Below, piece by piece: positions 15,093 through 61,490 of a stretch of 64,000 nucleotides of DNA. Source of the DNA: Isoetes taiwanensis (taxonomy: Eukaryota > Streptophyta > Lycopodiopsida > Isoetales > Isoetaceae); contig JAJEKV010000054.1 in NCBI GenBank assembly GCA_021234155.1, positions 5,813,962 to 5,877,961 on the forward strand, in the 5' to 3' direction. How positions within the stretch are numbered: position 1 is the first letter of the stretch; every line of letters begins with the position of its first letter. A program made the translations under genes and the position numbers. The notes below the pieces were generated by a model. It saw nothing but the letters and a program-made list of their open reading frames with translations. It searched no databases and was not told the origin of the DNA.

Positions 15093-15214
15093 ATCAAGCT
15101 AAAGAACATCAAAGAATTCAAAATTTCAACATAACATCACGAAATGTTATGATATATTTTTTTTTTTTACTATCCTCATTATACATACCTTTTGATAATT
15201 TAAGATCTATAAAA

Positions 15215-39315: not shown

Positions 39316-39475
39316 TTTCTCTGCATGTGTTTGTGCATGAACACTGTGCAAGTGTGTGCATGTGCATGTGCACATGCATGTGCATGTGTGTGCATGTGCA
39401 TGTTCATATGCATGTGCATGTGTATTGTGCATGTGCAAGTGCAAGTGCATGTGCATGCGTGTGTGCATGTGTACT
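39316..39475. repeat. GTGCAT microsatellite (copy 2)
   Basis: Nearly base-for-base the array at 4321-4480, with no change in unit number. That is unusual for an independently evolving microsatellite and points to a very recent or artefactual duplication. Confidence 0.9.
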
Positions 39476-40815: not shown

Positions 40816-41084
40816 ATTATGCATTCTGGTAGAATAATATGTTAGAATGGCGATTTTGGGTTCCGATTTTCCACTAGGTTAATCGGCGCCCGGTAGCGTT
40901 TTTAGTTTGGCTTTTCTATTTCATACGGTTCTATACAAATCGCGCCAGGCGCGTGTGAAATAGATCTGTGAAAAAAACAAAGCAAATGCGCCTGGCCCGT
41001 TTTGAATTATGTATGTTCAGAATCGTTTTATGGGGAGAGTAATATATCATTTGCTAATTACTTAATTTCTCTCGTTCTAGTGCC

Positions 41085-41507
41085 ATGGATTTTCCTTATG
41101 CAAATACCTTTGGTTGCTCCTAATTCAAATACTTTGGCTGGTTCTAGTTCAAATACACTTCCACGGGCGACCATCAACATTTGGACCACGTACAAGATAT
41201 TACTTGATTGTCTTTGTTCAAAGCGTTCAAAGAGAGTTGGAGAATCCATTACATGATGCGTATCGGGGCCATGGGAACACTTCCATCGCATCTACGGACA
41301 TATCGCGGCTCCTCATGCTCTTAGTAAGGCTCATGCCAACAAATAGTCACGAGGATTTGATTTATAGTATCAGGATCGATACAACCTTCTAGTTTGGAGA
41401 CTCGACATTCGCGAGGGAAGATGAGGATCTGTCATATCGGAAAGTGGTTCAGGTGGGACTTTTGGTGGTATTGGGGTGATGAAGTGGGCCTATGTGACAT
41501 ATTGTAG
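41085..41507 (+). pseudogene. S1 (cassette A, copy 2)
   Basis: Starts MDFPYANT and ends GLCDIL as in 6110-6530, but with extra indels in the middle. These are probably sequence noise rather than separate mutations. Confidence 0.4.
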
Positions 41508-41847
41508 AGATAGAAAGAATTGGCGCTGGCGCATTTTTTTGAAGAAGAAATGTACATATACTTTTTGGAATATGAATACAAACTTGCTTTGGCGCAATTT
41601 GCACTATACTTTTATGTCATTAGTTTATTATGTTTTTTTATATGCAATGTCGAAAACATTGAATCCTTTGATGCCCTCCGGCCCGATTATGACCAACCCC
41701 AAGAAACTACATATTTTCATTAATGTGTAGTTTCATGGGGTTGATATATTTGAGCTAAAGAACATCAAAGAATCCAAAATTCACAACATCACTTGAGATG
41801 TTATGATATATTCATTTTTTTTAATATCCAAATATACATACCTTTTT

Positions 41848-42085
41848 TGGGGCGTTCTTTTGGCCATGCTACAAATGTGCCCACGCTTTCACCAAGCGTA
41901 TCATGGCAGGGATGTCTTCTTGGAAGAGCCTCATCTTCATAATTGCGGTTTATAATGGAAATCTTCTGGCTTGTTTCCAAGAGGAACACCATGACACATA
42001 GAACTTGGATTAGGATCTTGATTTTACACAATCCTACTCGGCGCTTCAAGTTTCTTTGTTAAAAGATAGCATTCTTCTCCCAAAC
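41848..42085 (-). pseudogene. DUF8039 fragment (cassette A, copy 2)
   Basis: Reverse-strand NRNYEDEALPRRH, ESVGTFVAWPKERPKK and GLCKIKIL segments in alternating frames; counterpart of 6870-7105. Confidence 0.5.
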
Positions 42086-44374: not shown

Positions 44375-44760
44375 TTACCAAATCGGCGCCGGTAGCGATT
44401 TCATATTAAAAGCAAATTGCGCCCGGTAGGCCGATTTGCCCACTATAAAAACAAAAGGCTTCTGGAATGGTAGCCGTCTCTCCTCAAACAAGCAAATGCG
44501 CCTCGTAGCGATTTCATATCGAATGCTTCGCGCCCCGCGGGGTTGCACGCCCTCGGGGAGAAAAGGCTATCCGTCTAATGGCCAAGTCTCCTCAGGCTAG
44601 GCAATTCTCGCGTGACGCGATTTGCATTCTAATATGAAATCGCGTCGGTATGATTTACTGTTTGGCGAAACGGCTACCAATCCGAAGCGTTCTCTTTAGA
44701 GTAGGCAAATCGCGCCCGGTAGCGTTGATGAAAATATGAAATCGCGCCGGATTTTAAACT
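44375..44760. repeat. Giant imperfect palindrome in PMF-A intron (copy 2)
   Basis: Counterpart of 9428-9780. It retains an extra right-arm segment (GATGAAAATATGAAATCGCG, about 44726-44746) that pairs with the left-arm GATTTCATATT. The original palindrome was therefore longer than copy 1 shows. Confidence 0.7.
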
Positions 44761-46972
44761 AGAAGGATTTATTTTATTCACGATTATGAAGCTAACAAGG
44801 TTACTCCTTGCGGTCCCTATATAGAGCAACTTTGGCATGCTTTAACGGAACCGTGGATTGAATATGGGAAGCCAATGCCAACAAAGGCAGGGGGCCAGTC
44901 AAAAGCGCCGAATTCAAGTTCTTTGGAGAGGACACTTAGTGGGGCGATAATACGAGGACAAAACCAAGAGCACCGGATCAAAGAAAAAAAGGAGATGAAA
45001 AGGGTGATGCTTCAGAGGAACCAAGCGTGCCCAAGGATGCACGCAAGATAGTATTTGCTTCAGATCGGTATGGGAGAAATGGAATGAATTGCGGGATGCC
45101 TACATCGAGAAGAAGTTGCCCGATTCACAAGGAAGATTTCCTCCTCTGTTGACACATCAATTTTTTGATATACATATAGCGAGAGATGAGGAAGGCCGGG
45201 GATTGGACGATCAAGAACTCATCTCGATTCACGGATAGGTTAATCGAAGGAAATCCTTTACAAGAAAACCTCAAACAACAAAGGCTATGGAATCCTTTGA
45301 AGATGCATGCGAGGAGCTGAAAAATATTAGAGTGCTCAAGAAGGCGGGTTGGTGAGGAATTACAAAGGCTTCAGGAGAATGGTGGTTGTCGGAGTTAGGA
45401 CTCATGCAAAAATATAACGTCTCCAACGGCGACACGAAGAAGTATGTCTTTTGGTCCAAGGACTTTGTCAAGCGGCCAGTTGAAGAAGCGTTGCAAAGAT
45501 CGATTGGGATTCACACTAAAGTTGCATCCGACTTGAAAGCGAAAAGTCGCGATGGTGAAGCGGACTTCGGAGGCGGAATCCACTTTTTTTTTTATCAAGT
45601 GTCCACTTTGGTTTCAAGTGTGCCTTTGCCGAAGTGGGTGCAGGTCCCCATGATATCACACTCTTAGGTCCTTGATAGCCGACACGGATGGTCGCTTGAT
45701 GACTATAATCGTTCTTCAACATATGCAATGGTTTCACCCACGGAGATGAACTACACAATTGTCACTATATGTCCCTCCAGACATGTCCTATGCATATGTC
45801 TAACGGCTGCAAATGACTTAGAATGCGTGAAAGTCATCCGACAGGCGATCCTCATAGATGAAACCAGGGACATTGACTTCAGCACAACAAGTAAAATTTC
45901 TCATGTGCTTATAATTATGATAGCCATGATGGACGATAAGGAATATGAAAGGCTCAAGGGAAAACCGGATGGAGACAAACTAGCATGGCGGTGCTATCGG
46001 TTAGATGAGCATAATGCGAAAGCGTCTTCTATCGGAGCAAGAACAACAAGGGGAAGGACAAGGTGGTGGAAGAGTTAGAGGAAGAAGAGGAAGAAGAGGA
46101 TGAAAATGAGGACGACCCAATTCTTGTGGGCCACATTAAGTATGAGCTCCTAACTTCACATAAGGGTAAGCTAAACAAGAACGGGTTCTCTATGGACCTT
46201 TCCCAGTATCTCATTGAAGCATTTTGTCCATTGGGAACAACTTCTTTGGGAACTTCCGTTGGAGGTTACATCGGTAGAGAAGCTTTGAAGTTAGCAAGGA
46301 AATGTCGGGCGTCGTCTCAGATGATCGAGCCAAAATTTCTTGGACCTCTTCTTTGAGAAAGTACTAGAGGAAGCATCTAGGGGACCAATCGGTGATTACA
46401 AAAACAAAGCTTCTAGCTCTAAGGCGAAATACTGCGCAGATTTGCTTAAGGAACGGGAGAATATGGAAAGCTATTCGTTGGCCACAACATCATGGATGAA
46501 ACCGAAGAGCAGCAAGATCACCAAGTACCTATCGACATCCCTGTGAACATCCTTGGCCCTGAAAATATAGAACAGGATGAAGATAACAAGGATGATGATA
46601 ATAACAATAATGATGATGAAGAAGACTCCAAATCTGAAAACACTAGCCGGGTTAAGCGTAAAAAGTAATGAACTATCAAGCATAGTTCACTGTCTGGAAT
46701 ATCCCGATGTGGTTGGTGCTTCTATCAGACCGGAGACAACTCAGAATAAGGATGCAACGGAAGAAGACAACACGGGGAATGAAGAAGAAAGGTATCGTAA
46801 CAATGTTCCTTTTTTTGATATCCATGCATTTTACAAACTACAAGCATGCGATTTAGTGTTTCCTAGAGATCATATTTTTAAATTATGTTGACATGCATCA
46901 TTCATGAAATCGCGCCTGGCGCGTTTTCGTTTTCCATTTCTTTTATCTCATACGTTGATGTTCTCCTTACAG

Positions 46973-47606
46973 AAACGATTTAGCTTCCCCAAAAGTACTG
47001 GTCTTTGATTTGAATGGTGCACTATGTAGAACGTTACCTAAAGCAACGTTCGAAAAGTCATGGTATGCGCAACAACCATTTGAAACACGTACCAAATATG
47101 TTTACCCGCGCCCTTATCTGAAGGAGATGTTGGACCAGGCCTTCAGTCTGTTTTGTTGTGCAATTTGGTCATCTATGGAGCATAGAAATATACAGGATGT
47201 TCTGAAAGTAGTGCCTGAGCTAAATAGAGAATGGGCGTCCATCTGGGATCAAAGCAAATGTGCTTCATTCACAAACCCTAAAGAACCGACAGGTAAAAAG
47301 ATATTTGTGAAATGCTTGCGCAACATGATGGATGCCCTAGGTGTTGAGGATAAGGAAGGCATGATCATTGTGGATGATGACGCTTTAAAATGTTGCTTCA
47401 ATCAGTCACAGTCATTGAATCCGCCGCCCTATCATCCTCAAGATTTTGACAAAGATGACTTCCTGCTTCGTTTTGTTAGTGTCTTGCATGAAATAGCTTC
47501 AGGAAAAACGGTCGAAGAGATACAAACACTATACCCGCAACTTGATCGGACAGGGGAAATTGACAGGGACCTTGAGAAAATCGTTCTAGAAAGAGAACTT
47601 TTTTGA
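46973..47606 (+). CDS. Last exon of PMF-A: FCP1/NIF-like HAD domain
   Basis: An intact exon following acceptor CTCCTTACAG (ends 46972). HAD motif I reads VFDLNGALC: the nucleophile Asp is kept, but the second Asp of DxD is Asn. CAIWSS fits motif II, KKIFVKCLRNMMD supplies a motif-III Lys candidate, and IVDDDALKCC is motif IV. PRPYLKEMLDQAF fits the RPG-type cap-side helix of FCP1/SCP phosphatases. The domain is followed by QLDRTGEIDRDLEKIV to the stop. RNA polymerase CTD-type phosphatases belong to this family; the Asn suggests weak or no phosphatase activity. In all four copies this is the best-conserved part of PMF. Confidence 0.8.
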
Positions 47607-47867
47607 TATATATGTATACGGGAAATACACTTTCCAAAAAGCTTTGAATATGAAATATACTTTACATGAAAGGTTTTGAATATATATTGTGTTCTTATAT
47701 CAGCATTATTGGTTCTGTGTACGTATTTTTTTTTTATATTATGTGTATGAGTTGCTATACTTGCAATAATTTGTATGTATATACCGTCAATAATTTAGGT
47801 GTGTATAAATAGGTATGCATGAAATTGGCAAACCATCGGCTTCGGTCTCCGCCTTCTGCTTGTTATT

Positions 47868-48062
47868 ATGGCACATTCTATTACCTGCACGATGAACCAT
47901 GCGGACCTCTGCAGGTGCCGCGAGCTAGAAATAGAACTTCAGGACTGGCTTGATGTCGTTGCTATGAATCCCGTCCGCTTCTATCCTGATCCCTTTGATG
48001 TTGTAATCCATCTTATATGGAATCCAGAGCATGCAGCGCCTGACGACGATGAATCGGATTAG
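47868..48062 (+). CDS. S2, small TATA-driven gene (cassette A, copy 2)
   Basis: Intact 64-aa ORF, not recognised. Segments: MAHSITCTMNHADLCRCREL, NPVRFYPDPFDVVIHLIWNP and an acidic end DDDESD. TATAAATA at 47804 lies 57 bp upstream of the ATG. Conserved in four cassettes, with an in-frame insertion of nine codons near the C-terminus in cassette B. No signal peptide or membrane segment. Confidence 0.6.
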   Translation: MAHSITCTMNHADLCRCRELEIELQDWLDVVAMNPVRFYPDPFDVVIHLIWNPEHAAPDDDESD

Positions 48063-48201
48063 TTTTTTAAGTTTATGTTCTATTATAATGCGTTATTTAT
48101 GCCAAGCAAATCGCGCCACGCGCGATTTGAACCACGAAAATCTCTGTTTTGTAGCAACTTGCTTGCTGTTATTTATTCGTAAAGCATTACAATTTCAATG
48201 T

Positions 48202-48492
48202 TTAGATTTCGTTGTCGTCCATGAATGTGTGAATTAATAAGCAATTTCCTGCTTTTTCTATTGCCAACATCCTGTCATAATATGGGTCATTTGCATCGAA
48301 TATTTGAATGCCTTTGCATTTCAACATAAAATGCATCTTCCTAGCCCGAAAATGAACACAGTGCAAAAGTGTGGTTAATTCAATATGATGGTCAATAAAA
48401 TGCTTATACGGCGCGATTTTGGAATAGACATAATCCCAATTTAATTGAATGATGGTTTCAACTTTTGTTTTCGATTTTTGGTTTCGGCTCAA
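48202..48492 (-). CDS. ORF Z, antisense hypothetical (cassette A, copy 2)
   Basis: 96-aa ORF differing from 13177-13503 only at its C-terminal end (HTFMDDNEI against HTFMGDKSN). Unrecognised; it overlaps the leader block of cassette B on the opposite strand. Confidence 0.45.
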   Translation of the reverse strand: MSRNQKSKTKVETIIQLNWDYVYSKIAPYKHFIDHHIELTTLLHCVHFRARKMHFMLKCKGIQIFDANDPYYDRMLAIEKAGNCLLIHTFMDDNEI

Positions 48493-49428
48493 AGGCAGAG
48501 GCTCAAATCTCGGGTACAGAAAACAAAGAGGTTAGTATTTCATGTTCTTTACTTAAAGTCTGTTATCTTATTCTTGTTTTTATTCTAGTATTTGAAAGTT
48601 CTGTTCTATCTGCTTTATCTGTTCTTTATCTGTTATATGAGCTTCAGGGTTAATCAAGGGGAGTGCTTACTGGCTTAGACTTTTAGATGCATCAATCCTA
48701 TACTGCCCTAGCACCTTCATATATAGATCTATTATTTATAAACACCCTCTATTGCTTATAAACATGTTCTATTGCTTATATGATCTTGCTCTATGATCTT
48801 GCTCTATGATCTTGCTCTATCTATTGCTTATAAACATGTTCTATTGCTTGTATGATCTTGCACTATGATCTTGCTCTATCTGCTCTAAATAATGAACCAA
48901 AACAATGAACTAAGTAATGAACTATGATCTTGCTCTATGATCTTGCTCTATCTGCTCTAAATAATGAACCAAAACAATGAACTAAATAATGAACTAAACA
49001 AGGAGTATTATTATTATACACCTGAGCTATTTGTTCTTATTCTATCTGCTCTATTTGCTCTATGAGTTCTTATTCTGCTCTATCTGCTCTTAGATTTGCT
49101 CTATCTATTCCCCTGGCTTCGTATTCTATTTTTCTGCATTTTTTTTTCTATAGAATGATATGTCAGAATGGGCGAAATCGCGCTTGGCGCATTTCTAGTT
49201 TGGCTTCTAATTTCCCACTAGGTTAATCAAATCGCGCCAGGCACGTTTCTAGTTTGGCCTTTCTATTTCATACGGCTTTATACAAATCGCGCCAGGCACG
49301 TGTGAAGTAGATATGTGAAAAAAACAATATAGCAGCTGGCGCTGGCGTTTTTGGATTTTTGTATATTTAGAATCATTTTCTGGGGAGAGGAATATCATTT
49401 GCTAATTAGTTAATTTCTCTCGTTCTAG
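48465..49428 (+). promoter_or_regulatory. Leader exon and leader intron of cassette B (copy 2)
   Basis: Leader block to 48530, donor GTTAGT at 48531, acceptor TCTCGTTCTAG ending 49428 (intron 898 nt). It contains TATGATCTTGCTC repeats (48775-48960) and GC palindromes near 49185, 49230 and 49288 of the form CGCGCCAGGCACG. Confidence 0.5.
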
Positions 49429-49438
49429 TGCATTACAC

Positions 49439-49812
49439 ATGGCCGCTTTTAGTTCAAATGTACTTCCCCTGGACGACCATCAACGCTGGACCCTGTACAA
49501 GATACTACTTAATTCTGCTGTTCAAAACATTCACACAGAGTTGGACAAGCCATATGACCCGATCAGTATCGGGGGCCATGGGAATGCTACCATCGCATCA
49601 CTGGACATATGCGGCTCCTCATGCTCTTAGTAAGGCTCATGCCAACAAATAAATACGAGGATTTGATTAGGAGTATCAAGGATCGACGGGACACTCTGAT
49701 TTGAAGACTCGACATTCGCAGGGAATGGGAGGATCCTGTCATATCAGAGTGGTACAGGTGGGACTTTACTCGGTATTGGGCTGATGAAGTGGGCCTATGT
49801 GACATTTTGTAG
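49439..49812 (+). pseudogene. S1 (cassette B, copy 2)
   Basis: Cleanest S1 sequence. MAAFSSNVLPLDDHQRWTLY, ILLNSAVQNIHTELDKP and GGHGNATIASLDICGS are in one frame, which then meets a TAG overlapping GTAAGG (49629). The C-terminal segment (LMPTNKYEDLIRSIKDRRD, ADEVGLCDIL) is in another frame and has a TGA where cassette A has Trp. Either GTAAGG is a splice donor or the gene is frameshifted. Function unknown. Confidence 0.45.
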
Positions 49813-50020
49813 AGATATGTACAGCCAGCTATGTTAGTTTAGAAAGAACTCGCGTCTGGCGCATTTTCACAGAAGGAAAAATGTACATATATTTCTTTTG
49901 AATATAAATACAAACTCGCGTCTGGCGCAATTTTGCAGCTTAAACTTTTATGTCACACTTATTTTATTATGTTTTTTTATATGCAATGTCGAAAACATTG
50001 AATCCTTTGATGCCCTCCAG

Positions 50021-50090
50021 CCAGTATGACCAACCCCAAGAAACTACACATTCTCATTAATGTGTAGTTTCATGGGGTTGATATGACTGG
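50021..50090. terminator. Hairpin after S1 (cassette B, copy 2)
   Basis: About 32-bp arms, 50021-50052 with 50059-50090, both reading CCAGTxATxxCAACCCCA then AAACTACACATT inward; loop of six bases. This is the best preserved of the four hairpins. Confidence 0.6.
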
Positions 50091-50135
50091 CTAAAGAACA
50101 TCAAAGAATTCAAAATTCGCAACATCACGCAAATG

Positions 50136-50564
50136 TTATGATATATTCATTTTTTTTTTACTATCCTCATTATACATACCTTTTGATAATTTAAGATCTA
50201 TAAAATTATAGCTTCTTTGTATCAGAAGGTCTGTACATACCTTTTTTAGACGTTCTTTTGGCCACGCCACAAATGTGCCCACGCTCTCCCCGATTGTGTC
50301 GCCACCAGGATGTCTTCTTGGAAGAGCTTCATCCTCATAGTTGCAATTTATAATGCTAACTTTACAGAAACTGTTTCCAAGAGGGACACCATGGCACTTA
50401 GATTCAGGGTCCAGGTCTTCGATTTTACATAATCCAAGTCGACGCTTCAAGTTTGCTGTTAATAGATAGCATTCTTCTCCGACGCTGATAATTGAAAATA
50501 TTAAAAGAATGATTTCACATGAACAGTCTTCAAGAATATAATATGTTTCAAGAACAGTCTTCAA
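50136..50564 (-). CDS. DUF8039 fragment (cassette B, copy 2)
   Basis: 142-aa ORF and the best copy of this module. Residues about 40-115 give the DUF8039 pattern: LLTANLKRRLGLCKIEDLD, CHGVPLGNS, VSIINCNYEDEALPRRHPGG, IGESVGTFVAWPKERLKK. In plant genomes this domain sits in En/Spm-associated proteins. Only the domain and short tails remain. It is convergent with S1 and divergent from PMF. Confidence 0.65.
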   Translation of the reverse strand: MKTVLETYYILEDCSCEIILLIFSIISVGEECYLLTANLKRRLGLCKIEDLDPESKCHGVPLGNSFCKVSIINCNYEDEALPRRHPGGDTIGESVGTFVAWPKERLKKVCTDLLIQRSYNFIDLKLSKGMYNEDSKKKMNIS

Positions 50565-50821
50565 ATCCTACTGATAGCACTCACTATAGTTCGGCCGACA
50601 TGATAGCGTGTCGATCAGTCGAGGAGGCGATCGCTAAGTCGAGGCGGTCGATCAGTCGAGGAGGCGAGTTGATCAGGCGAGGAGGCGGTCGACCGGAAGA
50701 AGTCGGCGAGTTGATGCGGTTTCTTGAAAAATTCGGTGGCGAATGAATAATTCGGCGTGCCACATAGGCGTTTCTTGAAAATAATAAAAATAAATATTCG
50801 TGGATGTGCTTTAATAAGAAA

Positions 50822-50979
50822 ATTAAGTTTTTAATTTGAAATGAGCGGGATAAGCGGTTAATATAGGCGGGATAAATTGTAATTTAAAATCGGATAGCAA
50901 TCTGACGGTTCAGATAATGCACCCATACGTATAAATTTGAATCGCGTCCCATAACATTGCATTCGAACATTGCAGCGAT
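50822..50979 (+). promoter_or_regulatory. Core promoter of PMF-B (copy 2)
   Basis: TATAAATTT at 50930, 50 bp before the ATG. GAGCGGGATAAGCGG and AGGCGGGATAAA at 50843-50875 resemble E2F sites (GCGGGA core). Conserved with the PMF-A promoter despite divergence of flanking DNA. Confidence 0.55.
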
Positions 50980-51370
50980 ATGGCGTCCGGGGCGCAACGA
51001 GAGGTAGAGGCGGAGGGAGAGGCGCAGGGAGAGCTGGGCGACGGTCCAACACTCGGGGAAGTTCCGAGCAGTCGACAACACTTTCGGGGAAGCGGTGTAT
51101 TTACTATTTCTTCTCGATTTCTACAGTTTCTGTGTTATTTTTAAGTTTTGTCTAATGTCTGTGTTGTTTTTTATCATTTTTCTACTGTCTCTGTGTATTT
51201 TCTACCTTTTATATTGTTTCTATGTCATTTCTACTGCTTTTACTACCTTGTTTTGTGTGTTTTTTGTTATAATCTTCTCCTGTACTCTGTGTTTTTTGTT
51301 TTGTATTCTACAGTCCGTATAATGTAGACCGTTTAATTATAGTTTCTTGCACTTGTTTGTTTATAGTTTT

Positions 51371-51483
51371 TTTTTTTTTTTTTTTTTGAAGAACTGTGTC
51401 ATCAATATATTAAAAGAATGGTAATGTTACAAAGCAAGTGAGGAGGAAGGAGAACTGCCCCAAAGAGACAGCGATACCTCGAA
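51371..51483 (-). mobile_element. Short LINE 3' end (copy 2)
   Basis: 113 bp including poly-T, flanked by 17-bp direct repeats TGTTTGTTTATAGTTTT at 51354-51370 and 51484-51500. The text next to the poly-T (GTGTCATCAATATATTAAAAG) is the reverse complement of a typical plant L1 3' end. Severely 5'-truncated retroposition in a PMF-B intron. Confidence 0.8.
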
Positions 51484-51754
51484 TGTTTGTTTATAGTTTT
51501 GTTCTGTATTCTCCAGTTCTTTGGAAAAGTCTTTTTTGTAGCCTAGTATGTCTCTTATAATATAGAGCTGGTCTGTAGGGCCTCTCTTAAAAATGCGATC
51601 GGCGCGATTTATAATGTAGAGCGTCACTGATATGATTGTTTTTGGCTGTCTCTGATACTTTTCTTGTGTACCATTTATGTTTTCCGTAGTAAGGCGTCTA
51701 TCAAAACGCGCTCGGCGCGATTTTATTACTCACCACATGATTGTAACTTTCAAG

Positions 51755-52854
51755 ATCTTCTAAAAATGTTAAAAGAAAATCAAAGCCTGGGCAGGGTCAC
51801 GGGACATCAGCACCGAAAAAACTAAGAATGGAGGAAGATAGATTTGGCACATGTTGTGACCATGGACGATACGACCGGAATAATAAAGGCTCAGGTAGAG
51901 CCTCCATGTCCAGAAGAAGATCTACCAGAGGGCTCTGAATGGTATGTGGAGATCTTCAAGACTAGCGGAAAGACAGATCTTATTTTCATGTCTAGAGTTA
52001 AGGAGAAACAAGGTATTCTGATCACATGCGAAGAACAGGACGATTCATACTGTTCCGTATTACTTGAAGCGGGTCAGAAAAATATTGAAGAAGTTAAATT
52101 ACTGCAGTGCCTGTTCCTTTAAAGAGACAGCCCTAAGAACGGATGAGGCTGCAGATAACCTCTTCAAATTTGACTGGTCAGGTGGTGAACCATTGACACC
52201 AAAAACAATATGTGAAGGTCTCTCAGCTGTGAGAAGAGCAATCAGTACAAGGCCGTCAGGTAGTGTGTACCTACGAGGTTTAAAAGAGAAGGAAGATGCA
52301 AGTTCTAGAGGTAGGAAAACAGCAGACGCTCTACCCATTACAGATTTGACTAGTGATGACGATAAGGCGAGACAGTTAGAGGCCATGAGCAAACTCAAGA
52401 AGTATGCTGACAAGTATCCACTGGGCCTTAACTTCACGCATCCAGTAAATGTCGACAGGCTTTTCAGGTCCACGAAGGCTATGTTTGTCAGCAGAAGATA
52501 CGACAAGCAGCACGCAATGGAAATAGTCAACATCATGATTGAAAACCCAGGGCAGGTGCCAATGCCGGCAGATGTGGTGCCTTTTGATATGTAGACGAAG
52601 AAGGTGTTGATCTGGAATAAACTTGAAGATTTCATTGGCAACCTGGATATTCACTTCATGATAATAGATGGCCAGCATTCAGTGGAGGCGCAGAAGGTTT
52701 TGATCAGTCAAGCACAAAAAACTGGAAATCAGTTATTCTATAGACTATACTCAGTCAGAAATTGCCGGTTCCTCAGTGGCTCAACAACAGCAGCAGAATT
52801 AGCCGAAATTAGTGCGCTACTGAATGACATGGGAAAGACATTCCTATACAAAAG
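51755..52854 (+). CDS. PMF-B exon: basic segment and ParB/DGQHR-like domain
   Basis: Begins after acceptor TTTCAAG with KNVKRKSKPGQG, a likely nuclear localisation segment. It then reads WYVEIFKTSGKTDLIFMSRV, NLFKFDWSGGEPLTP, LSAVRRAISTRPSGSVYL, and a ParB/Srx-like core: GLNFTHPVNVDRLFRS, MFVSRRYDKQHAMEIVNIMI, PADVVPFD, LEDFI, then HFMIIDGQHSVEAQKVLISQ. DGQHS-EA matches the G-[EQ]-[HR]-R-x-x-A type signature of ParB N-terminal and DGQHR domains, with Ser in place of the usual Arg. Such domains bind or cut DNA or hydrolyse nucleotide in bacteria. An in-frame TAG (52592) stands 16 codons before the IIDGQH motif. Ends at donor GTATTT. Confidence 0.65.
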
Positions 52855-52994
52855 GTATTTCATTTTCCCACATAGCTAGTCTGGAACTTCCAAACTGCGC
52901 CAGGCGCGTTTTCGTATGTCATATATAGCTTTCCAAATCGCGCCAGGCGCGTTTTCGTCAATCACGGATTTACAAGAAACGCGCCTGGCGCGAT

Positions 52995-54124
52995 AGGGAA
53001 AAGCTTAAAGACGTAACTACTTTGATCAACAATTGTATAGGCAAAACAAAGGAAGAACAATCTGTTGACAAGAACAATAGCTTTGGTTTCCACAACCAAT
53101 GGATTTGGGCATCCAGTTTCCACCCAACTGGATCCAGAACAAGAACTAAGGCAATTTCCCAGGGAAAAAGAATGAAAGGAATTGATCAAGGCCTATTCTC
53201 CCTTCAGCACAGGATCAAACCAATCTACAACAGTTATGGGCTCAATCACAATCACCAAGGATTAGAACTCGATTCAATCTCAGGCTTATCAGAAAAGCCT
53301 GCAGGCAGAACAGGCCTAGAAGCTCCGCCTACAAGATCATCAGCAGAATCGGGAGTTTGATAAGCAGGTTTGAGAAGAATCAATCAGTATCCGGGTTGCA
53401 GATGCCGGAACCAAGAACAGGTATTTCAGAGAGTCGGATCTGTTGGCAGAAGCCGGAAACAAGTCTGTGATGCCGCTGTCCTCATCAGACTAGCCGTTCT
53501 CCTCTCTTATAACCCAAATCGGGCCTTCTTGTTGACGAAAAGGTCGTTGCCATGCTATTTCAATCATCCTCCCGCTCCATGCCTTTTTGGTACTAAAAAT
53601 AGTTGCTTCAAATCCTATTTCGATATTTGCCCCTTTAAGATATTTTCCCTTTCTTTAACAATATCTCCCTTTCCTTTAATGGTTGATTAAATTATCTTGC
53701 CCCTTGTAACCATTGGTTTTTCCAAATGCCCCATTGCCTTAGTTCATTTCTTCTCTGGACCACTCCCCCTAGCATGCCCCATATCAATCCATCCCTTCTT
53801 AAAGAAGATCGTCCGCGATCTTCCAAAGACGCTCCAGAGGAACTCCATCCCTTCGTAAGGTGATTGCCCCATACATCTGAAGGTTCTGCAATTCAAGAAA
53901 TAGTTTTGGATATGCGCGTACTTCCACAATACGATATATCCTTGTACCTCCGTGGCACATTGCTATCGTTTGTACCTCCGCGGTACTTATTTGATAGTAT
54001 CTCCACGATACTAAACTATTGTATCTCGCGATACGTTAGTATTTTTCGTACCTCCGCGGTACTACTTAATTGTATCTCCGTGATACTGATGTAATTTTGT
54101 TAGGCCTATTGTGCTATAACAACA
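52995..54124 (-). repeat. 3' LTR
   Basis: About 1,130 bp. Shares GGGAAAAGCTTAAAGAYGTA, a region around GGCAAAACAAAGGAAGAAC and CTATTTCGATATTTGCCCC with the other LTR. Its 5' (U3) end carries six GTAC/GTATC palindromes. The terminal TGATATGCTTTA of the complete LTR end is missing on this side. Confidence 0.85.
53944..54086. promoter_or_regulatory. Six phased palindromes in LTR U3
   Basis: Near-palindromes of consensus GTAYCTCCGYGRTAC start at 53944, 53972, 53997, 54021, 54048 and 54072, a spacing of 24-28 bp. They lie 40-180 bp inside the start of the LTR, where enhancers sit. Some contain GTAC cores at both ends. Confidence 0.75.
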
Positions 54125-54242
54125 ATTACCACCTTTCAAAAATTACATCTAATGCACCATGCTTTTTTAATAATTTAATTTTTATTCCACATAAAAATCA
54201 AATCTTACAAACCAAATCAAATCAAATCTTACAAATCTTGTC

Positions 54243-55259
54243 CTAAAGAGATGTAAATCTTTTTCTACTTTTACCCCATAGTTCCAATTTGGAGCCACCT
54301 CCGTATCTATAGCATCCACCTTTTGGTTCCTTAATTTCCTTCCGCAGTCTAATTTGACTTCCCTCCTCACGCTTCCTTTCAGAACCATTACCATTGCCAT
54401 TATTTCTCTTCCTCTTAGAGTTCTTAGAGGATTCCTTACTTCCGTTTTTCTCTTTGCTACTCTTTTTGTCCTCTTGATCTGAAGTTTCTTCATCCCAAAT
54501 ATCAAACTTCCTAGACTTTGGATCTAGTTTCCGCTCCACTGCGGATGCTAGTTTTATGGCTTCATTTAAATCTTTTGGGAAAAATATTTCCATTTCCGCA
54601 TAAATATCATCCCTACATCCACTGACATATTTTCTTAGAAGCTCTTTTCCATCCAGATTCCTTATTAATGCCGCTAAATGAGTGAATTTGGAAGTATAGG
54701 ACTGAATACTCTCAGTTTCCCCCTGTTTCAGACGATCCCATTCCCTGCGTAACTCACTGTGATAGTTTGAGGGTAAATAATGTGCTTCAAATGCCGTTTT
54801 GAAACTTTCCCAATTATTAATCCTGGGATCACATTCTCGTCTGCCTTGCCACCATGCTTGGGCTCGATCTTTCAAATCAGTGTCCATGGCTTGCAGTCTT
54901 TCCACATCTGTTGCCTGCACTCGTTCAAAGAACTTTTCCCATTGGCTGATGAAACTAACAACCTTGACAGGCTTTGTCTTTCCCCCTTTGAAAGACGGCA
55001 TATCCGCTTTCTCTAACCATTTTCTCAGCTTAGGTGGCGGTGGAGGAGTTACTGGAGGAGGACCATTAGGCAAAGGAGGTTGCGAAGGTTGCTGATAAAT
55101 ATCTGGAAGGAAGCGGTACAGAATAGCCAACAATTCCACTTGCCGGTCATACTCTTGCTGGCTGCTAGGCGTAGGCAATGCTGACTGAGATGCAATATAA
55201 CCAGCGTTAGACAAGGCTTGCTGATATTGCGCTTCAGTAACATTGAAGCATTGGGCCAT
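54243..55259 (-). CDS. Retrotransposon Gag (Ty3/gypsy-type)
   Basis: Intact 338-aa ORF; the ATG at 55259 is 24 bp from the primer-binding site. N-terminal Gln-rich part, Pro-rich linker (PPPVTPPPPP), then a retrotrans_gag domain at about residues 85-240: SFKGGKTK, VVSFISQWEKFFERV, DRAQAWWQGR, WESFKTAFEAHYLP, REWDRLKQGETESIQSYTSK, YVSGCRDDIY. A Lys/Glu/Ser-rich basic tail follows. The zinc knuckle is degenerate: only CYRYGGGSKLELWG remains where CX2CX4HX4C is expected. Gag forms the particle packaging element RNA. This ORF has stayed open although the host gene has decayed. Confidence 0.85.
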   Translation of the reverse strand: MAQCFNVTEAQYQQALSNAGYIASQSALPTPSSQQEYDRQVELLAILYRFLPDIYQQPSQPPLPNGPPPVTPPPPPKLRKWLEKADMPSFKGGKTKPVKVVSFISQWEKFFERVQATDVERLQAMDTDLKDRAQAWWQGRRECDPRINNWESFKTAFEAHYLPSNYHSELRREWDRLKQGETESIQSYTSKFTHLAALIRNLDGKELLRKYVSGCRDDIYAEMEIFFPKDLNEAIKLASAVERKLDPKSRKFDIWDEETSDQEDKKSSKEKNGSKESSKNSKRKRNNGNGNGSERKREEGSQIRLRKEIKEPKGGCYRYGGGSKLELWGKSRKRFTSL

Positions 55260-55282
55260 TGATCAGATCTGAGGATCGGTAG

Positions 55283-55294
55283 GCTCTGATACCA
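55283..55294 (-). other. tRNA-iMet primer-binding site
   Basis: Reverse-strand TGGTATCAGAGC, the standard plant initiator-Met tRNA primer site, two bases inside the LTR end. The same site occurs at 20357-20368. Confidence 0.92.
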
Positions 55295-55296
55295 CT

Positions 55297-56050
55297 TGAT
55301 ATGCTTTAAGGGAAAAGCTTAAAGATGTAACTACTTTGATCAACAATTGTATAGGCAAAACAAAGGAAGAACAATCTGTTGACAAGAACAATAGCTTTGG
55401 TTTCCACAACCAATGGATTTGGGCATCCAGTTTCCACCCAACCGGATCCAGAACAAGAACTAAGGCAATTTCCCGGGAAAAAGAATGAAAGGAATTGATC
55501 AAGGCCTATTCTCCCTTCAGCACAGGATCAAACCAATCTACAACAGTTATGGGCTCAATCACAATCACCAAGGATTAGAACTCGATTCAATCTCAGGCTT
55601 ATCACAAAAGCCTGCAGGCAGAACAGGCCTAGCAGCTCCGCCTACAAGATCATCAGCAGAATCGGGAGTTTGATAAGCAGGTTTGAGAAGAATCAATCAG
55701 TATCCGGGTTGCAGATGCCGGAACCAAGAACAGGTATTTCAGAGAGTCGGATCTGTTGGCAGAAGCCGGAAACAAGTCTGTGATGCCGCTGTCCTCATCA
55801 GACTAGCCGTTCTCCTCTCTTATAATCCAAATCGGGCCTTCTTGTTGACGAAAAGGTCGTTGCCATGCTATTTCAATCATCCTCCCACTCCATGCCTTTT
55901 TGGTACTAAAAATAGTTGCTTCAAATCCTATTTCGATATTTGCCCCTTTAAGATAGGACGTTTCCCTTTTCTTATACGCCAAATGGTTGCTTAGATAATA
56001 TCTTGCCCCTTTTTTTTCCCATAATATCTTATAGCCAAATGCCCATTGCC
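55297..56050 (-). repeat. 5' LTR, outer end truncated
   Basis: About 754 bp aligned to 52995-53740. It lacks the U3 region with the six palindromes, so this LTR probably could not start transcription. It ends at GCCCATTGCC, directly against AGGCGCG palindrome sequence. Confidence 0.8.
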
Positions 56051-56207
56051 AGGCGCGTTTCTTGTAAATCCGTGATTGACGAAAGAAATCGCGCCAGGCG
56101 CATTTCTTGTAAATCCATGATTGACGAAAACGCGCCTGGCGCGTTTTGTATTGTTATTGTTTTGACGGCCTGTCTATTTTATTTATCTAACGGCCCATAT
56201 TTTGCAG

Positions 56208-57630
56208 TCCGTATATGGAGCAGTTGCGGCACGCTCATAACCAATGGATCGAATATGGAAAACCAATGCCGACCAGACAAGGGCAATCTAAGAGTGACGA
56301 ATTCAAATTACTAGAAAGGACACTATGCCAAACCATAATATAGGACAAGAGTAAGGGCACCAGATCAAAGAAGAAAAAAGGGGATGCACAAGCTGGCTCA
56401 GAAGATCAAACGGTGCCAAAGGATGCCTGCAAGATTGTTTTTTCTTCTGACCAGGTATGGGAAAAGTGGAACGAATTTTGGGACGCCTATACGGAAAAGA
56501 AGTTGCCAGATTCGTATGGCAGGTTTCCTCCGCAAGATACGTCTATTTTTTATATATGTATCACAGAGATGAGAAAGGCACAAGGATTGGATGATGCAGA
56601 ATTAATCTCTGTCTTAGAGAGGTGCATCAGAAAGGAAGTTGTCTACAAGAAAACGTCTGCAGCAAAGCACTTGACATCTTTCGAAGATGCATGCGAATCG
56701 CTAAAAAATATGAAAGTCCTGAAAAAGGCTGTTGGCGAAGAACTGCAAAGGCTTACAGGAGACTTCATGTTATCAGAGATAGGCTTAATGCAAAAGTACA
56801 ACGTATCTAATGATGACATTAAGAAATATGTGTTTTGGTCAAAAGATTTTGTGAAGCAGCAAAAGGCGAAGAATGTGGCAACTCTAAAGGGGATTCACAC
56901 GAAAGTGGCGTCTGACCTAAAAAGAAAAGTTGCTTTGGTGAAACAGATGCCAGAAGAGGAGTCTCCTTTTTTCTATAAGGTGTCCACTGGTTATAAGTGT
57001 GCCATACCAGACGTGGGTGATGGGCCAACCGACATCACTCTATTTGTTCTTGATAGCCGTGGCACGAGATGGACACAAGATGATTACAGCACCTTCTTCA
57101 ACACATGCAGTGGTTTTACGACTGAGATGCATTATACTATCGTGACAGTTTGCCATTCCGACATGTCCTACGCATATGCACTATCTGCTGCAAATGATCT
57201 TGAATGCATTAAAGTGATGAGGCAAGCAGTAATGATAGATGAAAACAAAGATAGTGAGTTCAGTACCGAACGTAAGATCTCACATGTGCTAGTCCTTATG
57301 ATAGCCATTATGGATGATAAAGAATATGAAAGACTCAAGGGGCAACCAGAAGGTGAGAAGATTGCTTGGCAGTGCTATCGGCTAGATGAACCCCTACTGA
57401 AGAATGTTTTTTATGTCGAATCCAATGCTGAAGACAAAGGGAAAGGGATTGCAGATGTGGATGCGGACCTTATAGAGGACGAAGAGGAAGAGGAAGAAGA
57501 AAAATGGGTCGACCCTGTCCTTAATTCACCAATCAAGTATGAGCTACTGACGGCGCATAAGGGGAGGCTGAATAAGTACGTGTTTTCTTTGGCCCTTTCG
57601 AGTTTTCTGATTGAAGCCTTCTGCCCCTTT
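56208..57630 (+). CDS. PMF-B exon: linker and first part of methyltransferase-like domain
   Basis: Opens after acceptor TTTTGCAG with YMEQLRHAHNQWIEYGKPMP and a Lys-rich stretch; TAG at 56341 is followed in frame by a 420-codon open frame. Helical linker: WEKWNEFWDAYTEKKLPDS, LSEIGLMQKYNVSNDDIKKY, GIHTKVASDLKRKV. Then GPTDITLFVLDSRGTRWTQDD, HYTIVTVCHSDMSYAYAL, HVLVLMIAIMDDKEYERL, an acidic run (EDEEEEEEEKW), and FSLALSSFLIEAFCP at the LINE junction. LFVLDSRG occupies the place of the DPPY motif of a beta-class amino-methyltransferase. The DPP residues are absent, so catalysis is unlikely. Confidence 0.6.
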
Positions 57631-59375
57631 TTTTTTTTTTTTTTTTTTTTGAGAGAATGGGGTTTTTTTCATTAATTATAGAAAAAGGTACATTGATGTG
57701 AGTGAGCCATAAAGTAGGCTACTCAAAATTGAACTTGCAAGCAAAAGTAACATGAACAAAAGTAACATAAGTAAATGCTGTGCTATATGTGTAGCAGAAA
57801 TATTTATTGTTATGAACTAGTTGTCTGCCTTGTGAGAGAAACTGTGATGCTGCAACCAAATTGAACGAGTAGAAAGTCTTGAGATTGTGCAGCTGATAGG
57901 TAAATGTTGGCAGCAACATGTAGACAAAAACCTGTCGATTCGTAAGTGCTCAGATTGGACTTAAGGGTGGATGAAAGGGGAAGATGAAATCAGATTAGAA
58001 ATGATAGGATGTGAGGAAGTCAAGGTTTGGCTGGAAGTCTGGCTGCAGAATAAGAATGTTACCATTTCCCCAGTTTAGCTCTTGGATCAACCTGTCTGCA
58101 TTAGTTGTGGACATCAAGATGATGAGTGTGCCATAAGCATCTGCTAGCCATCTATGGTGATAGTAGCATTGTCTGTAATACTGAAATTGTTGATCTGTCA
58201 TCCGTCTACTGTTGCTTTCCATGAACCACCATAACTGTACCATTAAGTGAGTGCCTCTGCAGAACTCTATGACCCAATCAATTTCATCGTCTGGAATATC
58301 TGGGATATCAATGTCTGTGATGCCCCTGACTAGGCCTGTCCATAATCCATCATCTGTAAACTGAATGTCATGAACTAGTCTCTGACCAGGGAAAAGTCTG
58401 TACTCTGCTGGCTCCACTGATGTGTTGAAATCTCTGCTAAGGCTCATCATGTAATCTAGCAGAAAGACAGTCATTGTCAGTAAGTGTGATATTGCAATTT
58501 AATTTAAACAACAAGTGAGAACCAATGAAATTACCAATACCATACCATTTATTGTCCACAGAATCCTTATCTACATGCATTTGACTAGTTGCAGTCATTT
58601 CAATGTCATAAATAACTTGTGTTTTTATCCAGTATGTAGATGATCTGTTGCCTCCATAATGACATCTGTTTCTATGTTTCCATACATTCCATAGTGCAGT
58701 GAAACACAAAGAGTTTCTAAAAGCTTCATCATTCATCATAAACCATTTAATTTTGAAAGTATCCTCAAACCATAACCAAAAGGAAGTGAGCTTGACACAC
58801 CCGAAGATGTGTTCTAAAGTTTCTACATTACCAAAGCCCAGAGGGCAGTTTGGATTAATGGGATGAGTGTTCTGGTTTGAATGCCTAGAAATCATTTCCA
58901 GATTTGATAGACTTTTGTTTGCAACAAGCCAAACAAAGTATGAGATTTTTGGGGGTAAATAGGAATTCCAAATGTTTTTGAACAATCTGGTTTCAGTTTC
59001 ATCTGAGAATCCCCAGTACAATTTAGCTTTTGAAGGCGTATTTGACTTGTTTAGACATCTGTAGACTTTGGAAACACTGTAAATAGGCTTGTCAGATAAA
59101 GTCCAATCAATACAAATGGGATTATCCATTGGATTGATATTGCAAACCTTCTGCATGATGTATCTAAAGAAGGATCTGTCTGAAGAACTACCTCTTATTT
59201 TGTGCTTCAAAGTAGTCCAAGACATCCATCTGTTTTGATCCCAAAGATCACCAAGAGTCAGGATATTAAAGTCTTTCCATTTTTTATAAAGCTTTTTATG
59301 CCTGATAGCTAAAGGAGTAGAGCTGTCCCTTGAGAAATTAGAGTTCCAAAATATGCTCGTGTTAATATGACATTT
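57631..59375 (-). mobile_element. 5'-truncated L1-type LINE (copy 2)
   Basis: Inserted in reverse orientation within a PMF exon. Poly-T tract at 57628-57650 is the element's 3' tail. Flanking repeats TTCTGCCCCTTT (57619-57630) and TTCTGCCCTTT (59376-59386) are the target-site duplication. Removing the element rejoins EAFCP with LEST and the downstream methyltransferase-like frame. About 1.75 kb remains, from late reverse transcriptase to the 3' end. Confidence 0.88.
57995..59373 (-). pseudogene. LINE ORF2 C-terminal part (RT end, zf-RVT, C-terminal region)
   Basis: Upstream of 59225 the frame reads STPLAIRHKKLYKKW and ILTLGDLWDQNRW, the usual end of an L1 reverse transcriptase. ORF 59225-58437 holds the zf-RVT pattern: PPKISYFVWLVANKSLSNLE, NCPLGFGNVETLEHIFGCVK, FWLWFEDTF. 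ORF 58474-57995 (RLVHDIQFTDDGLW, CYYHHRWLADAYGTL, TTNADRLIQELNWG) overlaps it in another frame and may be a diverged RNase H-like tail. No intact ORF1 or RT core is present, so the copy is dead. Confidence 0.78.
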
Positions 59376-59386
59376 TTCTGCCCTTT

Positions 59387-59895
59387 AGAGTCAACATGTT
59401 GGGAGTTTCATGCTGGAGGTTATATCGGTCGGGAAGCTCTGAAGCTAGCTAGGAAATGCCAAAGTGTGGTCTCTGATGGTCAAGCCAAGGACTTCCTTGA
59501 TATTTTTTTCGAGAAAGTGCTAGAGGTGGCACCTAGGGGTCCGATAGGTAGTGCAAGAAATAAAGCTTCTACCTCTAAGGCCGAATTACCTCCAGATCTG
59601 GCTAAAGAGCGGGAGGACATGAGAAAGCAGATGGATCAGATAAAGATGAATTTCGACAATGAGCCGGCTAACTATGCGGCCGAGATCCGACGGAAGGGGA
59701 TGTAGAGAACGCAAACTAAGAAGACAAAATCCAAGATGATACAGTGGAATCGGAAAGCTCTAGTCAGGTTAGCATAAAGAGTAATGAAGTATCAACCATA
59801 GTTCAAACACTAAGTGATGTGGTTGACACTTCTGGCAGACCGAAGACAACCGAGAGTAAGCTCATCATTGCGGAAGTTGAACAGGAACCAGAAAG
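59387..59895 (+). CDS. PMF-B exon remainder: AdoMet-binding-like end of methyltransferase-like domain
   Basis: Continues from the LINE junction with STCWEFHAGGYIGREALKLA, RKCQSVVSDG, DFLDIFFEKVLEVAPRG. In beta-class methyltransferases this place reads LDPFxGSGT-G-AA-klgR and then an acidic residue and A-x-x-R. Here GGYIGREALKLARKC keeps the Gly-rich loop and following helix; DPF is replaced. A Ser/Lys linker and a coiled-coil-like EREDMRKQMDQIKMN follow. TAG at 59703 and a frame change precede SSSQVSIKSNEVSTIVQTL. Ends at donor GTATGT (59896). Confidence 0.6.
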
Positions 59896-59986
59896 GTATG
59901 TTCTTCAAACAGAAATGACAATCGCGCCAGGCGCGATTTCAATTTTCTTTTTCCTTGTCTCACAAGTGTGTGCTTTCTTATTACAG
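59896..59986 (+). other. 91-nt PMF-B intron with GC palindrome
   Basis: Donor AAAG/GTATGT, acceptor TTATTACAG. The centre is a perfect palindrome, AATCGCGCCAGGCGCGATT with 9-bp arms. The matching PMF-A intron (46792-46972) has the same motif, inverted at its middle base, at 46911. Confidence 0.75.
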
Positions 59987-60605
59987 ACCTAAACCGGCTT
60001 CCTCCAAAATTCTGGTGTTCGATTTGAATGGAGTGCTCTGCAAAACGTTACCTAAAGCACAATTCGACCTATCATGGTATGCACAGAAACCATTTGAGGT
60101 ATATCCGCGGCCGTATCTGAAGGAGATGTTAGACCAAGCTTTCACTTTATTTCGTTGTGCAATTTGGTCGTCGATGGAGAATAGAAATATACAGGAAGTT
60201 TTGAGAGTAGTTCCTGAATTACATAGAGATTGGGCATCTGTTTGGGATCAGAGCAAATGTAAGTCATTTAAAAACCCGAAGGATCCATCAGGTAAAAATA
60301 TATTTGTGAAATGCTTGAGCGACATGATGGATGACTTGGGCGTTCAGGAGAAGGAAGACATCATTATAGTTGATGATGACGCTTTGAAATGTTGCTTCAA
60401 TCAGTCACAGTCACTAAATCCACCATCCTATCATCCTGGTATGGTTACCACAGATGATTTTCTGCTAAGCTTCATTGGTGTCATGCAAGAAATAGCTTCA
60501 GGGAAAACGATAGAAGAGATACAAACACTATACCCGCAACTTGATCGGACAGGGGAAATTGACAGGGACCTTGAGAAAATCGTTATAGAAAGGGAACTCT
60601 TTTGA
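59987..60605 (+). CDS. Last exon of PMF-B: FCP1/NIF-like HAD domain
   Basis: An open exon. KILVFDLNGVLCKTL (motif I with Asn for the second Asp), WYAQKPFEVYPRPYLKEMLD, CAIWSSMENRNIQEVLRVVP, WDQSKC, IFVKCLSDMMDDLGV and IIIVDDDALKCCFNQSQS (motif IV). Splicing gives PER-PKPASSKI across the junction. About 75-80% of residues match PMF-A. That this part stays open while upstream exons decay could mean independent use, but it may be chance. Confidence 0.78.
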
Positions 60606-60867
60606 TATATATGTCTACCGAAAATACACTTTCCATAAATGTTTTGAATATGAAATATACTTTACACGAAAGGTTTTGAATATATATTATGTTCTTGTAG
60701 CAGCATTATTGGTACTATGTACGTATTGTATTATTAGATTATGTGTATGGTTTGCTATACTTGCAATAATTTGTATGTATATACCGTCAATAATTCAGGT
60801 GTGTATAAATAGATATGCATGAAATTGCCAAACGATCGGCTTCGGCCTCTGCCTGCTTCTTGTTATT

Positions 60868-61089
60868 ATGGCACATTCTATTACCTGCAAGATGACCCAT
60901 GAGGACCTCTGCAGGTGCCGCCAGCTAGAAATAGAACTTGAGGACTGGTTGACTGTCGTTGCAATGAATCCCGTCCGATTCTATCCTGATCCCTTTGATG
61001 TTGTAATCCATCTTCAATGGAATCCAGAGCATGCTTTGTTCATGATGGAGAGGATCTCAGGAGCGCCTGTCGATGATGAATCGGATTAG
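60868..61089 (+). CDS. S2, small TATA-driven gene (cassette B, copy 2)
   Basis: Intact 73-aa ORF: MAHSITCKMTHEDLCRCRQL, EIELEDWLTVVAMNPVRFYP, DPFDVVIHLQWNPEHA, then LFMMERISGAPVDDESD. TATAAATA at 60804 lies 57 bp before the ATG. The nine-codon stretch around FMMERISGA is absent from cassette A. Its open frame beside a broken PMF-B supports independent function. Confidence 0.6.
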   Translation: MAHSITCKMTHEDLCRCRQLEIELEDWLTVVAMNPVRFYPDPFDVVIHLQWNPEHALFMMERISGAPVDDESD

Positions 61090-61269
61090 TTTTTTTAGTT
61101 TATATTCTATTATAATGCTATATTTATGCCAACGAAATCGCGCCACGCGCGGTTTGAACCACGAAAATCTAAGTTTTGTAGCAACTTGCTTGCCGTTATT
61201 TATTCGTAAAGCACTAAAATTTCAATCTATAGATTTCATTGTCGTCTGTGATGGTACGAAATAATAAGC

Positions 61270-61490
61270 AATTTCCTACTTTCTATATTGCCAACATTCT
61301 GTCATAATATGGGTGATTTGCGTCGAATATTTGAATGCCTTTCCATTTCAACACAAAATGCATCTTCCTAGCCCGAAAATAATCTCAGTGCAAAAGTGTG
61401 GTTAATTCAATATAATGGTCAATAAAAGGCTTATACGGCGCGATTTTGGAATAGACATAATCCCAATTAATTGAATGATGGTTACTACCA
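61270..61490 (-). pseudogene. ORF Z (cassette B, copy 2), degraded
   Basis: Reverse-strand homology to 48202-48492: FIDHYIELTTLLH, FRARKMHFVLKWKGIQIFDA and YYDRMLAI are readable. One base missing near the start, plus TGA and TAG codons, interrupt it. Confidence 0.45.

Follow-up and report, generated by a model that had tools for sequence, protein, structure and literature searches.

VANC proteins of the Arabidopsis VANDAL transposons bind short, family-specific motifs in the non-coding parts of their elements, the motifs differing from family to family (PMC5735166), and they remove silent marks and cause hypomethylation (PMC5735166; PMC10398659). Here we describe a transposon of comparable plan from Isoetes taiwanensis, analyzed through a 64,000-nucleotide stretch of contig JAJEKV010000054.1 (hereafter the window) and through further copies in the genome. 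The subject is a collinear series of four exons, one copy of which occupies positions 50980-60605. We are in almost no doubt that this series is the accessory gene (the second gene, on the plus strand) of a cut-and-paste DNA transposon, because a 31-bp end pattern occurs in the thousands, insertions are flanked by 4-bp target duplications, and the exon encoding its NIF domain is present in high copy number. A preliminary description of this DNA had taken the series for a single host gene, a 'plant gene', and in this it was wrong. It had also counted the series four times in the window; the series is real, but what recurs is two elements, one (alpha) inserted within the other (beta), each seen twice by way of a near-identical duplication (1-29.2k = 35.0-64k).

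Scoring 150 of 6,285 candidates gave at least 151 genomic matches to the last exon of the series (the NIF exon), and dozens of these, on different contigs, are 95-98% identical. Ten copies from among the better ones, given handles such as c2 and c3, were read with their flanks; they were picked by their NIF match, so the intactness of their NIF exons proves nothing. The 3' end of the element, GACATAATCCCAATTTAATTGAATGATGGTT, lies downstream of the NIF exon in all ten (perfect in nine, with one mismatch in c6), and the sequence beyond it differs between copies. Extra sequence precedes this end in c3 (~0.6 kb) and c8 (~2.5 kb), and the end seen at c8 may belong to another element. Copy c7 retains, of the known parts, only the NIF exon and the 3' end.

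The complete element is approximately 12.4 kb long and is bounded by 31-bp terminal inverted repeats, the 5' end being the exact inverse of the 3' end in c2 and c3. When up to two mismatches are allowed, the end pattern has 1,578 + 1,572 matches genome-wide (3,150), and a reversed control has none. Among 100 ends listed, 30 form 15 facing pairs that lie 12-14 kb apart, and an exact 4-bp target duplication is present in all ten of the pairs that were read. These ten elements, which measure 12.3-12.5 kb, were chosen for having both ends, and thus their inverted repeats are a selection criterion. With c2, c3 and the alpha element of the window included, the 4-bp duplication is found at all 13 insertions whose two ends were read. 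The duplicated target sequences are of mixed composition.

Near the 5' end of the element lies a minus-strand gene that matches DUF7869 (PF25273) with an expectation value (E) of 4e-11, above the cut-off. Pfam gives no function for this family. In c3 the gene is broken, with the segments HDKMDQ, LQLDNCA and GHTHEDVD in three separate frames, and these supply candidate D, D and E/D motifs by eye. From the family, the position and the DDE-like motifs, we infer that this gene encodes a DDE-type transposase that would move the element.

The accessory gene itself is best seen in c2, where exons 2, 3 and 4 join at GT-AG boundaries to give a single frame of 1,223 codons downstream of an exon 2 stop (codon 20); the aligned stretch of exon 2 is without a stop in c4 and c5. 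Exon 1 is followed directly by a stop in c2 and by none in c3, c4, c5, c6 and c8, and its join with exon 2, read by hand, is in frame in c4. A small third open reading frame (ORF) lies downstream of the accessory gene in alpha (47868) and in beta (60868). The preliminary description had listed a set of motifs, all of which are present: IIDGQHSVEAQ (52661-52693), LIEAFCP (57607-57627), GGYIGREALKLARKC (from 59415), and DLNGVLC and IVDDDALKCC (within 59987-60605). The arginine/glycine-rich (RG-rich) N-terminus that it also named is found as the exon 1 product of alpha copies (MASRGSGSRGRGAGRGGR), but the RG frame is shifted relative to the ATG in the beta copy of the window.

Its claim of one collinear gene ending in an FCP1/NIF-type HAD domain is borne out by the joined frame of c2 and by matches to PF03031 (NIF) on two copies (2.6e-16 and 5.5e-17), which pass the cut-off, the stronger covering the domain nearly whole. 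We regard the identity of this domain as certain from these profile matches, and a comparison of the NIF exon with solved structures gave no match at 1e-3. FCP1 enzymes carry the catalytic motif DxDx(T/V). At this site DLNG is found in 14 of the 16 matched NIF stretches, with Asn replacing the second catalytic Asp, and the other two stretches start beyond the motif. Because DLNG stands in place of DxDx, phosphatase activity of the HAD domain is doubtful.

Exons 2 and 3 of the window copy gave no significant match in Pfam or PHROG (best 0.054, to RFC1). A methyltransferase-like label for the exon 3 region is probably appropriate, on marginal support that comes through a sister family introduced below. 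One member of this family, L065, matches a PHROG DNA methyltransferase at 5.5e-4 over a segment containing VLDFFSGG, and over the same segment its best solved structure is RsrI (0.054) and NCBIfam offers RsmD (0.035). The Pfam N6_N4_Mtase profile reaches 0.063 for an 89-aa piece; with the whole ORF it reaches 0.24 and is outranked by a T7 virion assembly protein (0.0096). That match and other weak matches of the sister family (NUP210, 0.0042; an unknown PHROG, 0.02; SAKURA, 0.09; and others) were taken as chance. The position of the DPPY motif is occupied by LDSRG in the aligned alpha and beta copies and by DFRY, DLRY or DFRN in the sister family. Thus, the methyltransferase-like part named in the preliminary description survives marginally, solely through the concordant L065 matches, and methyltransferase activity is doubtful because DPPY is not kept.

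The ParB label fared worse. We assembled a profile set of 26 ParB-methyltransferases, consisting of the WOVitA1 phage methylase and 25 of 120 listed matches, and hhalign gave the ParB-like part a probability of less than 1% against them. In hidden Markov model searches, shuffled sequences reached the real scores of the ParB-like parts in 92-279 of 500 cases; for the methyltransferase-like parts, four of which scored, the figure was 112-209 of 500, and for the L065 piece 145 of 1000. One profile alignment fell on the correct methyltransferase motif, with an E of 0.04 and a probability of 1.3%. The DGQH of alpha and beta is replaced by NGNH in the sister family. On the profile tests a ParB assignment is not supported, and it reflects a resemblance of motif only. 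Separately, close copies (88-95%) of a Wolbachia phage ParB-methyltransferase occur in spider and insect entries, reflecting transfer or contamination.

Selection on the accessory protein was measured from nonsynonymous (dN) and synonymous (dS) divergence by the Nei-Gojobori method with Jukes-Cantor correction, comparing c2 with the beta copy of the window as representatives of two subfamilies. Exon 2 gave a dN of 0.105 and a dS of 2.06, exon 3 a dN of 0.136 with dS beyond saturation, and the NIF exon a dN of 0.102 and a dS of 0.681. Overall, dN/dS is 0.05-0.15, with dN at 0.10-0.17 in exons 2 and 3 and synonymous sites saturated or nearly so. With dN this low beside dS, all three parts have been kept as protein by purifying selection during the divergence of the two subfamilies. 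That dS is smaller in the NIF exon suggests an exchange of the 3' part between subfamilies.

The non-coding parts of the element carry a repeated, CpG-rich palindrome, CGCGCCWGGCGCG. The c2 element has 15 such sites at up to three mismatches, compared with 0-2 in 20 base shuffles, and an extended form, AAATCGCGCCWGGCGCGATTT, is present at four of them; at up to two mismatches none occurs in 11.6 kb of flanking sequence. None of the 15 lies in the four exons of the accessory gene or in the transposase module. Nine are intronic and six intergenic or downstream, and together they span 4824-12119 of the 12464 positions, with none in the first 4.8 kb. Beta has 14 copies of its own. When intron 2 of alpha is aligned with that of beta, the best alignment falls only at the palindrome (score 44, compared with a maximum of 25 in 50 shuffles), and in intron 3 approximately 70 bp including the palindrome align (44 versus 21). 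Intron 1 is hardly above chance (29 versus 28 for shuffles), and its aligned piece is not palindromic. Because a CpG-rich site survives in a largely unalignable intron, these comparisons point to selection on the palindrome itself.

A divergent relative of the accessory gene (c4rel, or L052) adjoins c4, its identity being 27.6% across a portion of exon 2. Searching the genome with this relative returned at least 93 matches, some of which are pieces of one copy (83 of 5,042 candidates were scored). The sister family that it represents, with loci designated L016 and L052-L065, encodes a protein with the same order of parts, and an ORF downstream of the gene resembles the small third ORF of alpha and beta, with none of 1000 shuffles reaching the score in each of three comparisons. 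No NIF exon was found in the part read, and extending the sequence by 1.4 kb at three places did not reveal the ends of the sister element; we infer that this family is the same kind of transposon. It also has a palindrome of its own, the 22-bp AAATTGGGCGNNCGCCCAATTT, which at up to four mismatches occurs 19 times in c4rel and 4-15 times in the nine loci scanned of 14, compared with a shuffle maximum of 0-1 (20 shuffles each). The alpha/beta motif and the sister motif are each absent from the other element.

The N-terminus of the sister protein reads MARTKQTAR. Ten of the 14 loci read align from residue 1, eight of them exactly, one as MARTKKTAR and one as MARIKKTAR; four do not align from there. 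ARTKQTAR matches the histone H3 tail exactly. Over the first 12 residues, MARTKQTARVPG, c4rel and L064 agree completely (12/12) at a synonymous difference of 0.92, and over the next stretch they agree at 19 of 46 positions; the comparison with L065, a more distant member, gives 9/12 and 22/46. By these comparisons the H3 tail, too, is under selection, being kept while synonymous change is saturated.

Our favored reading, to which we assign a probability of about 0.5, is that the accessory gene encodes a sequence-specific factor that is VANC-like in manner although it is not VANC. The protein would most likely recognize the CpG-rich palindrome of its own family in introns and intergenic parts. 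At these palindromes it may counter chromatin silencing of the element, as VANC does for the VANDAL transposons, a proposal that we place a little short of an even bet; the altered enzyme domains would in that case serve as binding or scaffold modules. The sister family, with its own palindrome, would achieve this by way of H3-tail binders, and the tail points to chromatin as the target. A more elaborate and rather speculative extension is that these transposons form a superfamily whose accessory proteins act as chromatin decoys. A family-specific reader of the dispersed CpG palindrome would tether to element DNA, in the sister family, a mimic of the H3 tail and, in alpha and beta, an RG-rich tail together with methyltransferase-like and FCP1-like domains that are inactive, diverting H3-tail writers, readers or polymerase-associated factors of the host so that the element stays expressed. 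If true, the transposon would encode a histone mimic directed to DNA by an address that co-evolves with it.

Several observations weigh against a silencing-countering factor of this kind. The palindromes are dispersed, as opposed to the one-orientation arrays of VANC motifs (PMC5735166), and their role could lie in transposase binding or in RNA. No DNA-binding domain was recognized in the accessory protein. Structure prediction, proposed in the preliminary description as a check on its folds, did not yield a predictable fold: AlphaFold models built from shallow alignments (6 and 9 rows) failed, with pLDDT confidence scores of 33.8 and 34.2, and Foldseek returned zero matches to them at E 0.001. 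None of the ten copies was shown to lack stops and frameshifts in every exon. Among alpha copies dN/dS is 0.15 at the lowest; for several segments in the 3' part of exon 3 it approaches or exceeds 1, reaching 4.96 over 88 codons, as would be expected of dead copies or a loose acidic linker.

TnpA of En/Spm is the second subunit of a transposition machinery, and the accessory protein could be a subunit of this type that binds the palindromes to compact and pair the element for its transposase. A two-gene element, repeated palindromes and strong purifying selection would all suit such a subunit, but the c2 sites leave the first 4.8 kb empty, so they do not mark both ends, and we consider this explanation unlikely. 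Less likely still is that the palindromes work as DNA or RNA structure (hairpins, insulators or splicing signals) unbound by the accessory protein; their intronic and intergenic or downstream placement would agree with this, whereas a motif that differs as a whole between the two families is a better fit to a co-evolving binder. An active methyltransferase might instead mark the palindromes or the element by N6- or N4-methylation, hiding it from the host or signaling to it. The marginal N6/N4 DNA methyltransferase likeness of the sister family speaks for this, as does the existence of retroelements with active cytosine methyltransferases (PMC5890265), but the absence of DPPY in both families makes it very improbable.

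The preliminary description had favored a host gene formed when a captured prokaryotic or viral ParB-methyltransferase was joined to a nuclear HAD domain. The FCP1-like domain is indeed real. The terminal repeats, target duplications, thousands of ends and negative ParB profile tests all argue against this origin, to which we give almost no credence; as a host gene it is rejected by copy number and terminal repeats. Capture from a prokaryote or virus is not supported: no such relative appeared in the protein database (searched with the whole protein and an exon-2 profile), in phage records (searched with exon 2) or in viral contigs (queried with the NIF exon and an exon-2 alignment); the phage and viral searches did not include the methyltransferase-like exon, and a prokaryote genome collection was not scanned.

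Within the window, the duplication extends over ~29 kb at a 35-kb spacing (1-29208 versus 35036-64000) with 90-96% identity, and gap openings are nearly as frequent as mismatches. Each copy carries both of the beta insertions, and frameshifted patches are present. This is probably an assembly artifact or an unpolished recent duplication, and the gap-rich differences look like unpolished long-read sequence. The published assembly of Isoetes taiwanensis comprises 1,658.30 Mb in 204 scaffolds and 909 contigs, built from nanopore reads with long-read gap filling (PMC8566536). Alpha is inserted in beta with TCAA on both sides, and the uninterrupted site was read in c2. The beta copy at 50980-60605 is broken by a Ty3-type long terminal repeat (LTR) element, a fragment like a long interspersed nuclear element (LINE) and an in-frame stop. 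The two LTRs of the Ty3-type element are 98.9% identical, indicative of a fairly young insertion. An inverted repeat of ~205 bp (95% identical) inside alpha (5248-5449, 5634-5838) is perhaps a nested small transposon. Coordinates of all features are collected in Table 1.

Table 1. Features of the transposon pair in the window; A and B denote the two renderings of the duplicated pair.
Feature	Position	Strand	Evidence or remark
Transposon copy alpha-B, within beta-B	34362..48457	+	alignment with c2 and c3; 5' terminal repeat damaged in assembly, 3' repeat perfect
Target-site duplication TCAA	left 34358..34361, right 48458-48461	.	uninterrupted site in c2
31-bp terminal inverted repeat, alpha-B 3' end	48427..48457	+	GACATAATCCCAATTTAATTGAATGATGGTT, perfect
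Transposase-like gene (DUF7869), frames broken in alpha-B	34636..37523	-	PF25273 E 4e-11 on 35089-35727
Alpha-B accessory gene	42562..47606	+	exon 1 at 42562, exon 2 43245-44339, exon 3 44846-46789, NIF exon 46971-47606; exons 2-3 noisy
Alpha-B small downstream ORF, MAHSITCTMNHADLCRCRELEI...	47868..48062	+	also in beta; resembles ORF near sister gene
Beta-B 3' part	48458..61483	+	5' part ~32330-34361; 3' repeat 61454-61483, one base fewer
Beta-B exon 1 region	50980..51095	+	RG-rich frame shifted relative to ATG
Beta-B exon 2 with DGQH motif (ParB-like by motif only)	51753..52854, start approximate	+	TAG at 52592-52594
LTR retroelement, Ty3-type gag, in beta-B intron 2	52995..55955 (LTRs 52995-53642, 55309-55955)	-	PF03732 4.6e-17, PF19259 1.9e-12 on 54243-55262
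Beta-B exon 3 first part (probable methyltransferase-like region)	56208..57626	+	
LINE-like fragment (zf-RVT) in beta-B coding exon 3	57627..59378, limits approximate	-	PF13966 1.4e-8 on 58437-59384
Beta-B exon 3 second part	59379..59895	+	
Beta-B exon 4, NIF/FCP1 HAD domain, DLNG for DxDx	59987..60605	+	PF03031 2.6e-16
Beta-B small downstream ORF	60868..61089	+	
CGCGCCWGGCGCG palindrome, 14 sites, beta-B	49179, 49233, 49288, 49851, 49917, 51707, 52896, 52939, 52980, 56045, 56090, 56131, 59923, 61139 (span 49179..61151)	.	up to 3 mismatches
Second rendering of the pair, noisy	1..26683: alpha-A 1-13468 (cut by window start), beta-A 13469-26683	+	

A large protein database that includes nr and UniRef entries gave no relative of the spliced protein (E 1e-3) or of the exon-2 profile (E 1) in a word-based search, which may miss distant ones; this agrees with the preliminary description, to which no described plant family with such an order of parts was known. 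Most of the protein has no confident likeness to a described family. Neither such an element nor a transposon-encoded H3 tail was found described in the titles and abstracts of top-ranked literature results, with subscription papers mostly outside their reach. In term searches, ParB, methyltransferase, phosphatase, Sola and lycophyte were all absent from a review, dated 2026, on genes captured by plant transposons (PMC13317346), as were plant, transpos and phosphatase from a 2025 survey of the ParB fold (PMC12704722). If our reading is true, sequence-specific accessory systems with co-evolving motifs arose in plant transposons far from Arabidopsis and from unrelated proteins, and one branch employs an exact H3 tail. 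Such elements would offer a testable system for silencing escape by mobile elements in a seed-free plant, and new DNA binders with sequence specificity could be drawn from them. The case also cautions that a fused 'gene' of this kind in plant sequence may belong to a transposon.

Target duplications of 4 bp are common to other superfamilies besides Sola2. Sola2 elements resemble the present one in this duplication, in having terminal inverted repeats and in carrying a passenger gene such as Fanzor1, but in their description the repeats are 12-21 bp and the duplications AT-rich (PMC3627910), compared with 31 bp and mixed sequence here. The NIF domain differs from that of the FCP1 HAD phosphatases in having DLNG for DxDx and in its fusion with further parts. 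ParB-N6/N4 methyltransferases of phages and bacteria likewise place a DGxH region before a methyltransferase region, and such fusions are known in phages (PMC12704722), whereas the accessory protein has no significant profile similarity to them and no DPPY. Retrotransposons of Symbiodinium and charophytes also combine a mobile element with a DNA-modification gene, but these are retroelements whose cytosine methyltransferases were shown to be active (PMC5890265). With the VANDAL transposons this element shares an extra gene in a DNA transposon, a short family-specific non-coding motif, and a motif and protein that differ together between families (PMC5735166). It differs in that no DUF1985 (VANC) match is among the Pfam results, and in its 31-bp repeats, 4-bp duplication, dispersed palindromes, and HAD and methyltransferase-like parts. 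In anatomy the element follows a plan like that of the VANC systems, with parts that are unrelated.

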